From: Bacteroidia bacterium | GTDB lineage: Bacteria > Bacteroidota > Bacteroidia > JADZBD01 | Assembly (NCBI GenBank): GCA_020054095.1 | Contig: JAGVMA010000052.1 | Coordinates: forward strand, 62,001 to 126,000 | DNA: 64,000 nt | Direction: 5' to 3' | Part shown: one piece after another, positions 20,548 through 30,963 of the stretch | How positions within the stretch are numbered: the stretch's first letter is position 1 | Layout of the letters: each line of letters starts with the position of its first letter | Position numbers and translations under genes: made by a program | Notes under the pieces: model-generated | What the model was told of the DNA's origin: nothing | The model's database searches: none | What the model saw: only the letters and a program-made list of their open reading frames with translations

Positions 20548-22146
20548 ATGATTGTGAGTTTAAAAATAAAAAATACTTTTTTGCTTTTACTTATATTTTT
20601 AGTTACCGATAAGTTAAATGCTCAATTTGGTCAACAGCCACCTTATACTATTTCAATAGAGCCGGCAGGCAGACTTGCACAAGGGTTTCATTCATTCGCA
20701 TTTGCTCAGGATAATAATTTTCTACTTTTAATAGGTGGCAGAACAAACGGATTGCATGGCATGTCATCAAACGATGGATTCCCTGTGCAATATGCTAATA
20801 ACGACATCATTGTAATTGACACAACAAGTTGGCAACAATTTTCTTCAAGCCTAAATGTGCTTCCATATAATATAGCTGACCCGCTTCGCTCCACTAACAT
20901 GCTATATTATGTGAGTGGAAATTACTTATACATGATTGGTGGTTACGGGTGGGACAGCATACAAAACAGGTTTGTAACATTTAACACACTCACTGCAATT
21001 CATATTAATGATATGGTTAATGCTGTACTTTCTAACAACCCTATCCAGCCTCACATACGGCAAATAACCGATACTAATTTTACAGTATGCGGTGGCGAGT
21101 TAAAAAAAATATACAACGATTACTATTTGTGTTACGGACATAATTTTGAAGGCCGATACACCGACCCTCCTACCCCACTTTTTACACAACTGTATAATAA
21201 TGAAATAAAAAAATTCAATATCACTGATAATGGTGTTTCCATTTCTGTATCTAACTTCAGCTATTTTATTGATACCAATGAGTTTCACCGAAGAGATTTG
21301 AATGTGTGCCCAACCATAACACCACAAAACCAACAAGGGCTTGTAACGCTTGGCGGTGTTTTTAGAAAAGATTACAACTTGCCATTTTTAAATCCAATTC
21401 AAATTGCACCAACGGGCGGAACAGTTATTAATTTTCAACAATTGATGAATCATTATACCTGTGCCAACATTTCGGTATATGATTCAGCAACTCAAAAGAT
21501 GTATGTAACATTACTTGGTGGAATTAGTATGTACGATTACAATCCGCAAAACAATACAGCAGTTTTAGATTCACTTGTACCTTTCGTGAGCGATATAAGC
21601 ACCATCACTATTAATGCCAATGGGCAGTTCGGGGAATCGGTGATGCCGTTGCAAATGCCTGGTTTGCTTGGATCAAATGCGGCTTTTATTCCTAACTTAA
21701 ATTTAATGTCTTATCAAAATGGTGTAATAAAATTCAGGCAGTTGCCATCGCAGCCCACTTTAGCGGGATATATTTTAGGAGGAATAAGAGCCACGGGGAC
21801 AAATCTTTTTCCGAGTACAGCAAACGATACGGTTTACAGATTGATAATTACACCCGATTTATTATCATCAAACGTAAACGATGAAAATAATACATCGTTT
21901 ACTATTTTTCCTAATCCGGCACAAAACCAAATAAACATTAGTATTTCTTCAAGCAAACAGTGTGTATTGAAATACGCTGTGTTTAACGCAAGCGGTGAAA
22001 AAGTTTTAGAATCCGACAGTGAATCATTCTCAGCCGGTAATCACATCAGAAAATTAAACACGGAGCTAAGCAGCGGAGTTTACTTTATTGAATTTAAAAC
22101 GAATACAAGTGTTAGCGTAAAAAAACTAATTGTAGTTAGTCAATAA
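20548..22146 (+). CDS. Secreted Kelch-like protein with T9SS type A sorting domain
   Basis: A signal peptide ending DKLNAQ is followed by strand-rich repeats with Kelch-like features (NNFLLLIGGRTNGLHG, NYLYMIGGYGW, KMYVTLLGGISMYDY). The C-terminal 75 residues (IFPNPAQNQINIS...GVYFIEF...KKLIVVSQ) are a T9SS sorting domain. I start it at the ATG at 20548, directly before the signal sequence; the frame is open 39 bp further up. It is divergent from polX, and its last 21 bp overlap the 3' end of the convergent aroF. The ligand is unknown. Confidence 0.8.
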   Translation: MIVSLKIKNTFLLLLIFLVTDKLNAQFGQQPPYTISIEPAGRLAQGFHSFAFAQDNNFLLLIGGRTNGLHGMSSNDGFPVQYANNDIIVIDTTSWQQFSSSLNVLPYNIADPLRSTNMLYYVSGNYLYMIGGYGWDSIQNRFVTFNTLTAIHINDMVNAVLSNNPIQPHIRQITDTNFTVCGGELKKIYNDYYLCYGHNFEGRYTDPPTPLFTQLYNNEIKKFNITDNGVSISVSNFSYFIDTNEFHRRDLNVCPTITPQNQQGLVTLGGVFRKDYNLPFLNPIQIAPTGGTVINFQQLMNHYTCANISVYDSATQKMYVTLLGGISMYDYNPQNNTAVLDSLVPFVSDISTITINANGQFGESVMPLQMPGLLGSNAAFIPNLNLMSYQNGVIKFRQLPSQPTLAGYILGGIRATGTNLFPSTANDTVYRLIITPDLLSSNVNDENNTSFTIFPNPAQNQINISISSSKQCVLKYAVFNASGEKVLESDSESFSAGNHIRKLNTELSSGVYFIEFKTNTSVSVKKLIVVSQ

Positions 22147-23127
22147 GTTTATTTTTTTCACAAACGCTGCGCTCTCATCAAAATTTAATGTCTGCTGACC
22201 ATCTGAAGCAGCTTCTTCAGGACATTGATGCACTTCGTAAATCACGCCATCGGCACCAGCAATTAGCGAAGCAAGTCCAATTGCCGCAACGTGCTCCCTC
22301 ACACCTATTCCATGGCTGGGGTCGGCAATCACTGGCAAATGTGATTTCTCCTTTAATACCGCGATTGCATTTATATCAAACGTATTACGATAAGCGTTTT
22401 CATACGTTCTTATTCCGCGCTCGCAAAGTATAAGTTTTTCATTTCCATTGCTGAATACATATTCCGCACTTTGCAAAAGTTCATCAATTGTTCCGCTCAT
22501 TCCGCGTTTCAGCAAAATTGATTTGTCCACTTTACCAAGTTCATCTAGTAAATTAAAATTTTGCGAATTGCGTGCTCCCACCTGAAAAACATCCACATAA
22601 TCGTACATTTCTTTTATTTGCGAAACTTGCATTACTTCCGTAATAATTTTTATTCCGTTTTTTTTGCAGATACGATAAAACATTTTCAGCCCATCAATTC
22701 CTAATCCTCTAAAAGCATAAGGCGAGCTGCGTGGCTTAAAAACACCACCACGCATCACTTTAATTCCGTTGAGTTTTAAATGGGTTACAATTTTCTCCAC
22801 CTGCTCTTCACTTTCAATTGAACATGGGCCGGCCATAATTGTTTTTTGAGCAGCGCCAATTTTTATTCCGCCACCCAAATCAACATGCGAATAACCCACC
22901 TTCCATTTTTTTGAAACTAATTTATAAGATTCCGAAACACGGTGCACGTCCAATACTCCCGGCAAACTTCCAATCAGACGAATATCAAAATCTGCCTTTC
23001 CGATACAAACCAAATAATTCCCGGCTTGTGTTTTCACTTCGGTTGGTTTGTGATTTATAGCGGCAATACTTTTTAGTATCAGCTGTTTATCTTTTGTTTT
23101 AATTTTTGACTCAAGTTGTATAATCAT
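22126..23127 (-). CDS. aroF: 3-deoxy-7-phosphoheptulonate synthase (DAHP synthase)
   Basis: It condenses phosphoenolpyruvate and erythrose 4-phosphate, the first step to all aromatic amino acids. It is of the Bacillus/Thermotoga AroF type. A ferredoxin-like N-terminal regulatory domain (1-85) precedes a barrel carrying AGPCSIESEEQ, MRGGVFKPRSSPY, LLKRGMSGT, LCERGIRTYE and IADPSHGIG. It is the last gene of the trp operon, with its ATG overlapping the trpA stop by 4 bp, so chorismate supply is tied to tryptophan demand. Its 3' end overlaps the convergent secreted-protein gene by 21 bp. Confidence 0.93.
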   Translation of the reverse strand: MIIQLESKIKTKDKQLILKSIAAINHKPTEVKTQAGNYLVCIGKADFDIRLIGSLPGVLDVHRVSESYKLVSKKWKVGYSHVDLGGGIKIGAAQKTIMAGPCSIESEEQVEKIVTHLKLNGIKVMRGGVFKPRSSPYAFRGLGIDGLKMFYRICKKNGIKIITEVMQVSQIKEMYDYVDVFQVGARNSQNFNLLDELGKVDKSILLKRGMSGTIDELLQSAEYVFSNGNEKLILCERGIRTYENAYRNTFDINAIAVLKEKSHLPVIADPSHGIGVREHVAAIGLASLIAGADGVIYEVHQCPEEAASDGQQTLNFDESAAFVKKINLLTNYN

Positions 23128-29367: not shown

Positions 29368-29397
29368 AAAAAAGCCCGCTGTTGAACAGCGGGCTTT
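29368..29397 (-). terminator. trp attenuator (intrinsic terminator in the trp leader)
   Basis: On the minus strand AAAGCCCGCTG and CAGCGGGCTTT form a perfect 11-bp stem with a five-base loop, followed by a run of T, and trpE starts just downstream. The 5' arm can instead pair with GGACAGC (29431-29437), through GCTGTTC (29384-29390), giving an antiterminator. This is the arrangement expected for ribosome-mediated attenuation. Confidence 0.9.
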
Positions 29398-29440
29398 GTA
29401 TGGTTTATATGTTTTATAAATAACAATCAGGCTGTCCTCG

Positions 29441-29485
29441 TTAAGAGTTAAGCCACCACCAATTGTTATTTAATATTATTCTCAT
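29441..29485 (-). CDS. trpL: trp operon leader peptide with three tandem Trp codons
   Basis: A 14-codon open frame reads MRIILNNNWWWLNS and stops at TAA (29443-29441). Three consecutive TGG codons lie at 29461-29453. Tryptophan is rare, so three in a row directly upstream of a terminator and trpE is a strong signature of an attenuation leader. The antiterminator arm begins three bases after the stop codon. A ribosome stalled at the Trp codons would leave the arm free to pair, and one that reaches the stop would cover it. The start is preceded by an A-rich stretch rather than a strong Shine-Dalgarno sequence, as is normal in Bacteroidota. Confidence 0.88.
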   Translation of the reverse strand: MRIILNNNWWWLNS

Positions 29486-29498
29486 TTTCTTGACGGAG

Positions 29499-29531
29499 CA
29501 AATATATAAAATGAAATTACAAACTACAAAA
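29499..29531 (-). promoter_or_regulatory. trp operon promoter
   Basis: On the minus strand TTTTG (29531-29527) is followed by a 20-bp spacer and TATATTTG (29506-29499), an exact match to TAnnTTTG. Transcription would start shortly before the leader ATG at 29485. The -33 element sits against the dacB stop codon. Confidence 0.8.
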
Positions 29532-29532
29532 T

Positions 29533-30963
29533 TTATTTTAGTGCACCCATTAAATCCATAATAGTTTCTATTTTTTTACGCATTTGGCTTGGGCTGCAAT
29601 CATAGTTATTGGCAATGATGGCAAATGCCAATAAGTCGCCCGATGGCTTTTTCACATAACCGGTATATGAGCGCACGCGCGTAATATATCCGCTTTTTGC
29701 ATAAATATTGTTTCCTTGATCGGGCAACGAATTAAAAAATGAATTGAAAGTTTTTTCTTTGGTCATAAATTTCATCACTTGAGCAAGTTGTTTTGCCGAT
29801 ATACTGTTCCAACGCGAAAGTCCGCTACCATCATTCAAGTAAAGCCCTTTTGTATCAACGCCTTTATTTGCTAATAATGTTTGTAAAAGAGCAGTGCCGC
29901 TGTTTAATGTTCCAAGTCCGCTTTGTTTTAACGAAACAGTTTTAAGCAATGCTTCTGCAAAAAGATTAACAGATTTTTTATTTGTCCAATAGACTATTTC
30001 AGATAAAGGTTTTGAAAAATGTGAGGCGAGCTTTTTTCTATCCGCTTTTTTATATTGACTATGTAATTGCAACTCACGAACGGTGGTGTGCTGTTTTTTT
30101 ATACTGATACCTGCTTGCTTTAAAAGCGAATCAAATTCATAAGCGCAATAAAGCGAGGCATCGGGCATTGAACCATCCACATCAAAATTAGTTTTGTTTG
30201 GAGGAATTTTTCCTTCGGCATACCTAATATTACTATGTGGTGCGCCATATATAAAGCAATTGTCGCCACTGCCGCTGCATTTTACATTATTTACAATTTG
30301 TAAATTTTTTATTGCAGGATTTGTTTTTACAATTTTCGCATCTTCGCCTGTATCGGTAGAATTAAAAAAGAGGGTGTATAAATTATCGCGATAATTTAAA
30401 CCCATTGCGCCTGCACCGTAATAATTTCCCATATCGCCCCAAATCCATGTTACCGGAGTTGGCTCATTCTCAAAACAAGACGCATCGGCAATTATACTTC
30501 CGGTAACGGATTTAATATTTTTTGATTTGAGAATAGCAATCCATTTTTCCATAAATGAATTTGCAGAGTCATCTTTAGTTACAAAATATTTTGAGCCAAG
30601 CGATGGATCGCCACTTCCTGTAATGTATAGGTTGCCGTTCAAAATTCCTTTTGCAGTATCTAAATAACCATCGTACTCTAATTTGGTTTCGTATTTATAA
30701 TCGGCACCAAGCTGTGATAATGCAATGGCGGTGGTAACTGTTTTTAATGAACTTGCCGGCACAAGGCCTGTGTTGCCGTTGTAATCAATCAAAACAGAAT
30801 CATTTTTAATATCATATAAATAAACGCCCAACATGCCTCGCTCTAAATCACTACTGCTTTTTAATTTATTTATTTCGGATTTTAATAATGCAAGATTATT
30901 ATCATCTATTGTGAGCGAGAAGAAAAACCCAAACGAGAAAAAAAGAAATAAAAATTTATGCAT
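29533..30963 (-). CDS. dacB: D-alanyl-D-alanine carboxypeptidase/endopeptidase (PBP4 type)
   Basis: A periplasmic class C low-molecular-mass penicillin-binding protein that trims or cleaves peptidoglycan cross-links. After the signal peptide the catalytic SxxK reads PASSLKTVT near 78. The SxN-type motif lies in NLYTLFFNSTD or the later SVNLFAEALL block, and the KTG-like motif is AKSGYITRVRSYTGYV. GDMGNYYGAGAMGLNYRDN is typical of the family. I start at 30963, where ATGCATAA overlaps the phhB stop by 8 bp; a further ATG at 30978 is less likely. The trp promoter lies immediately downstream. Confidence 0.92.
   Translation of the reverse strand: MHKFLFLFFSFGFFFSLTIDDNNLALLKSEINKLKSSSDLERGMLGVYLYDIKNDSVLIDYNGNTGLVPASSLKTVTTAIALSQLGADYKYETKLEYDGYLDTAKGILNGNLYITGSGDPSLGSKYFVTKDDSANSFMEKWIAILKSKNIKSVTGSIIADASCFENEPTPVTWIWGDMGNYYGAGAMGLNYRDNLYTLFFNSTDTGEDAKIVKTNPAIKNLQIVNNVKCSGSGDNCFIYGAPHSNIRYAEGKIPPNKTNFDVDGSMPDASLYCAYEFDSLLKQAGISIKKQHTTVRELQLHSQYKKADRKKLASHFSKPLSEIVYWTNKKSVNLFAEALLKTVSLKQSGLGTLNSGTALLQTLLANKGVDTKGLYLNDGSGLSRWNSISAKQLAQVMKFMTKEKTFNSFFNSLPDQGNNIYAKSGYITRVRSYTGYVKKPSGDLLAFAIIANNYDCSPSQMRKKIETIMDLMGALK

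Follow-up and report, generated by a model that had tools for sequence, protein, structure and literature searches.

The window, a stretch of 64,000 nucleotides from a Bacteroidia bacterium, carries on its minus strand a putative tryptophan operon. Reading along that strand, dacB/PBP4 is followed by a promoter, a leader open reading frame, the motif GGACAGC, a terminator with its T run and then trpE. The features, in this order, are as follows:

30978-29533, minus strand: dacB/PBP4, the gene 5′ of the attenuator
29530-29527, minus strand: putative -33 promoter element, TTTG (from the sequence)
29506-29499, minus strand: -7 promoter box TATATTTG, of the form TAnnTTTG (from the sequence)
29485-29441, minus strand: leader open reading frame of 14 codons, MRIILNNNWWWLNS and stop (from the sequence; WW/WxW leader in 97/107 relatives)
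29471-29461, minus strand: region 1, AAATAACAATT, 5′ arm of the 1:2 helix (from folding and species swaps)
29461-29453, minus strand: TGG TGG TGG, three tandem Trp codons, putative stall site (from the sequence and folding)
29437-29431, minus strand: region 2, GGACAGC, antiterminator arm (from folding and pairing tests)
29428-29418, minus strand: GATTGTTATTT, 3′ arm of the 1:2 helix (from folding and species swaps)
29397-29371, minus strand: intrinsic terminator (3:4), AAAGCCCGCTGTTCAACAGCGGGCTTT, a 12-bp stem with a 3-nt loop, then a T run
29390-29384, minus strand: region 3, GCTGTTC, partner of region 2 in the terminator 5′ arm (from folding and pairing tests)
29356-27947, minus strand: trpE, the first regulated gene (from family scan and context)
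27950-22126, minus strand: trpG, trpD, trpC, trpF, trpB, trpA and DAHP synthase, the remainder of the putative operon (from family scans)

The best NCBIfam match of trpE is TIGR00564 (trpE_most) with 419 bits, which does not reach the equivalog cut-off of 518 bits; despite this score, its identity is unambiguous by context. The frames of trpEGDCFBA and DAHP synthase lie on the same strand and adjoin or overlap, and we infer from this arrangement that they are co-transcribed. The DAHP synthase gene (22126-23127) is the last of the operon, so the attenuator would also govern the entry of the shikimate pathway. At the other end, the putative -33 element begins 2 nt 3′ of the dacB/PBP4 stop codon (29527-29535), which leaves no separate dacB terminator ahead of the trp promoter.

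A preliminary description of this DNA had placed a consensus promoter here. A promoter does lie at the site, and its sequence is that of the Bacteroidota -7/-33 form, not of sigma-70; a sigma-70 scan gave no match at the TATATTTG/TTTG site. In Flavobacterium psychrophilum, the -7 box was mapped at -12 to -5 relative to the transcription start (PMC9723704), and this spacing predicts a start at about 29494 and a 5′UTR of 9 nt, short yet not leaderless. Among the homologous leaders described below, TAnnTTTG occurs at most 30 nt from the leader ATG in 67 of 97, versus 1.7% in shuffles. The predicted 5′UTR is at most 5 nt in 38 of the 76 leaders with an assignable box, a count to be read with the choice of the leader ATG as the first in-frame one 3′ of the box, which biases these distances short. 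The leaderless share of mapped F. psychrophilum mRNAs is only 5.5% (PMC9723704).

Downstream of this promoter, the elements already described from the sequence are all found at their minus-strand positions: the 14-codon frame with its three TGG codons, GGACAGC starting three bases 3′ of the leader stop codon, and a terminator, located 14 nt 5′ of trpE, whose 5′ arm contains GCTGTTC. GGACAGC and GCTGTTC form 7 pairs, including one G-U. The preliminary description called the attenuator complete; every part that it named is present, but it left out the 1:2 helix (29471-29461 with 29428-29418). AAATAACAATT sits just 5′ of the first Trp codon and runs into that codon, GGCT/AGCC pairs stack above the AAATAACAATT/GATTGTTATTT helix, and this helix sequesters the 3′ end of the antiterminator arm. 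Compared with shuffled sequences, the entire leader fold has a z of -5.7.

The behavior of these pairings was analyzed by constrained folding, masking a ribosome footprint of 18 nt upstream and 14 nt downstream of the start of the A-site codon, an assumed textbook size that does not come from ribosomes of Bacteroidota. The segment from the end of the stalled ribosome to the terminator loop adopts the 2:3 antiterminator fold at -11.7 kcal/mol. For an RNA ending at 29383, the 2:3 probability was 0.98, 1.00 and 1.00 for a ribosome positioned on Trp codons 1, 2 and 3, respectively, 0.27 in ribosome-free RNA and 0.00 for a ribosome on the stop codon. This reproduces in silico the proposal that a ribosome stalled at the Trp codons leaves GGACAGC free and that one at the stop codon covers it. 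The 1:2 helix had a probability of 0.99 in ribosome-free RNA ending at 29394 and of 0.96-0.97 when a ribosome occupied the stop codon. Once it is complete, the terminator is favored at equilibrium in all ribosome states, so antitermination would have to be kinetic. Such kinetic action of the antiterminator is accepted for the enteric attenuator.

Conservation was then assessed among relatives. Of 119 genomes, 37 contained a TrpE homologue at E <= 1e-70, and 80 named TrpE loci belong to Flavobacteriaceae, Cytophagales-type genera, Sphingobacteriaceae, Chitinophagaceae and Bacteroidales; the genus itself is represented in the genome collection by this genome alone, leaving no closer relatives to compare. 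The upstream test set comprised 107 loci with at least 150 nt 5′ of trpE, and a locus was called positive when a short frame with two Trp within five codons was followed by a terminator. A leader and terminator were present upstream of trpE in 97 of these 107 relatives, spread across Bacteroidota, with the pattern WWW in 76, WW in 14 and W-x-W or similar in 7. The same scan of other segments from these loci gave 8 positives in 2869, some of which may be real leaders farther upstream. No feature of the leaders is more constant than their Trp codons, and the conservation check proposed in the preliminary description is passed: the phylum as a whole keeps these codons, the terminator and the alternative pairing.

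The loci without a call are heterogeneous. In L026, a WWW leader is present and the scanner overlooked its terminator, while the sequence of L004 stops at a contig edge. In L029, L094 and L107, a trpB-like sequence directly precedes trpE and a WWW leader lies about 1.4-1.5 kb 5′ of trpE, presumably before trpB; L034 has a WWW leader about 0.6 kb upstream of trpE. No tandem-Trp leader was found upstream of trpE in L006, L012, L024 and L104. L006 and L012 share a conserved frame that resembles a leader, contains one Trp codon (MKLWQ.YY.P.PLL.KGMG*) and is accompanied by a terminator; this is possibly a reduced or altered attenuator.

The geometry of the antiterminator was compared in 63 non-redundant leaders. 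The arm most complementary to the 5′ half of the terminator starts at a median of 27 nt past the first Trp codon (sd 4.4) and lies 18-32 nt past this codon in 90% of the leaders, versus 35% when shuffled. Its distance to the stop codon is far more variable (sd 12.2 nt), and in 46 of 63 leaders it begins within the leader frame; the placement seen in the window, with the arm three bases past the stop codon, does not hold generally. An arm pegged to the Trp codons rather than to the stop is what stalling at the Trp codons predicts. In flavobacterial loci such as L008, L036 and L054, the antiterminator arm CGTCGTGA overlaps the leader stop codon, which may account for the conserved peptide end LRQTS*.

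When each pairing was compared with its species-swapped counterparts, the median fraction of equally good swaps was 0.16 for 2:3 (KS P ~3e-12) and 0.18 for 1:2 (P ~4e-8), P values that are optimistic because related species were treated as independent. Taken alone, the window has a 2:3 pairing that exceeds shuffles only moderately (P = 0.025) and does not clearly exceed species swaps (0.35), since the GAACAGC/GCTGTTC core is common to many relatives. Its 1:2 pairing outdoes nearly all swaps.

These comparisons bear on a simpler reading of the locus, in which the hairpin would be the terminator of dacB/PBP4 and the WWW frame accidental. The gene indeed has the same orientation, with 136 nt between its end and the hairpin, and short Trp-rich frames by themselves are not rare, being found in 294 of 2869 control segments when no terminator is required. 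This reading is nevertheless very improbable given the leader and terminator ahead of trpE in 97 of 107 relatives, the four operons that have no adjacent leader and carry a WWW leader 0.6-1.5 kb farther upstream, and a position and pairing pegged to the Trp codons.

In 2004, Vitreschak and others reportedly mentioned candidate attenuators in Bacteroidetes/Chlorobi in a comparative study. Scanned with Rfam at the gathering level, the window gave no match, including to any T-box or riboswitch family. This empty result first suggested an uncatalogued element, an idea ruled out by a relaxed scan, whose two best sub-threshold matches of the window are both tryptophan leader-peptide families: RF01692 with 37.8 bits over its full length (1-131 of 131; cut-off of 49 bits missed) and RF00513 (Trp_leader) with 36.8 bits, also full-length (cut-off of 41 bits missed). 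RF01692, or "Bacteroid-trp", is the Bacteroidete tryptophan peptide leader RNA of Weinberg et al. 2010 (PMC2864571) and is present in the trp operon of F. psychrophilum (PMC6414381). At its cut-off, it matched 7 of 60 further loci (L011, L033, L035, L038, L041, L048 and L055) and additionally L008 and L036. The positive loci with organism names are Flavobacteriaceae, and the window falls outside this sequence group. The element thus resembles RF01692 in phylum, kind of leader and end-to-end alignment and differs in scoring below the cut-off; it is best called, from its site and anatomy, a tryptophan attenuator related to RF01692 that lies under both formal thresholds. Leader attenuation in Bacteroidota is already known, having been catalogued since 2010 under RF01692, and the novelty outside Proteobacteria implied in the preliminary description is therefore not upheld.

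A structured leader ahead of an amino-acid operon could also bind a ligand or a protein directly, as a riboswitch, a T-box or a TRAP-like target, with the peptide incidental. Neither the Trp repressor TrpR nor TRAP (PF02081) was found in the genome, the TRAP search matching its positive control in Bacillus subtilis. Together with the empty gathering-level scan for T-box and riboswitch families, the nature of the two best sub-threshold matches and the constancy of the Trp codons, this makes direct binding extremely improbable. Hardly any weight falls on the last reading, in which leader translation would act chiefly through translational coupling or reinitiation at trpE and not through termination: in Bacteroidetes, leader genes located close to structural genes have been proposed to increase translation (PMC4833913), but here the leader stop lies 84 nt from trpE, far from the 11-14 nt peak of that study, and a strong terminator separates the two. 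All three readings, the dacB terminator, the riboswitch or TRAP target and reinitiation, were rejected on these points.

Other attenuators of the genome were sought by gene family (hisG, pheA and ilvD). A His leader, MKQFTHIHHHHTFP and stop (HHHH), with a terminator precedes hisG (G000:C82, locus L114), and a Phe/Tyr leader, MTNKNRYYFFFYPTPTKGLRKEIYFCN and stop (YYFFFY), with a terminator precedes pheA (G000:C11, locus L132). His-rich leaders were found upstream of hisG in all 11 readable loci, including this genome, and aromatic-rich short frames upstream of pheA in 5 of 8 loci. For ilvD, this genome gave no match, and the relatives carrying the gene showed no clear leader upstream of it. When the whole 64-kb window was scanned for further amino-acid-rich leaders followed by terminators, no other convincing case emerged. 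The hisG and pheA leaders match the F. psychrophilum report of leader-peptide attenuation with conserved elements upstream of both genes (PMC9723704).

Leader attenuation has been discussed in F. psychrophilum (PMC6414381, PMC9723704), and the attenuators of its amino-acid operons (PMC9723704; trp element PMC6414381) share with ours the phylum, the proposed mechanism and the pheA and hisG elements; they come from mapped transcripts of one species, whereas those described here are known from sequence alone but phylum-wide. The fit to the enteric mechanism, suggested in the preliminary description, is borne out by a full 1/2/3/4 anatomy that switches in silico. As in the enteric trp attenuator (RF00513), there is a 14-codon leader with tandem Trp codons, the first gene is trpE, and the 1:2, 2:3 and 3:4 helices are mutually exclusive. 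Unlike in the enteric attenuator, there are three Trp codons instead of two, the promoter is of the Bacteroidota form, TrpR is lacking, the 5′UTR is about 9 nt, and the lower 1:2 stem is built from the codons immediately 5′ of the Trp codons.

The locus thus has a short leader frame with tandem Trp codons upstream of a biosynthetic operon, an intrinsic terminator between this leader and trpE and, in silico, a mutually exclusive antiterminator that is freed by a stalled ribosome and covered by one at the stop codon. We consider it very probably a ribosome-mediated transcription attenuator, sensing charged tRNA-Trp and governing trpEGDCFBA and DAHP synthase. The parts come from the sequence, their conservation from the comparison with relatives and the switch from constrained folding; from these we infer stalling, read-through and a response to tryptophan. 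In the proposed mechanism, transcription would start near 29494 and the 14-codon leader would be translated at once. With ample Trp-tRNA, the ribosome would reach the stop codon and cover GGACAGC, and the terminator would fold; after its departure, the 1:2 helix would form and sequester part of the GGACAGC arm, and the terminator would again fold. With scarce Trp-tRNA, the ribosome would stall on TGG TGG TGG and block region 1, so that the free GGACAGC could capture GCTGTTC before the polymerase has made the terminator's second half. Once 2:3 had formed, the polymerase would continue into trpE.

We more tentatively propose, as a possibility that we somewhat doubt, that the phylum-wide trp device is far broader than RF01692, that its peptide is often made, with no help from a Shine-Dalgarno sequence, from a transcript that is leaderless or almost so, and that the size of the stalled ribosome fixes the distance from the arm to the first Trp codon. 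How widely the device occurs in Bacteroidota and how regular its geometry is are of some interest. These results suggest that ribosome-mediated attenuation is a standard control of trp operons throughout the phylum, including an organism without TrpR and TRAP, and probably of his and phe operons too, with the Rfam model at its cut-off recognizing a small part of the leaders. The leader set also offers natural variants for studying prompt leader translation without a Shine-Dalgarno sequence, often with almost no 5′UTR, and for asking to what extent the geometry of the switch is dictated by the stalled ribosome.
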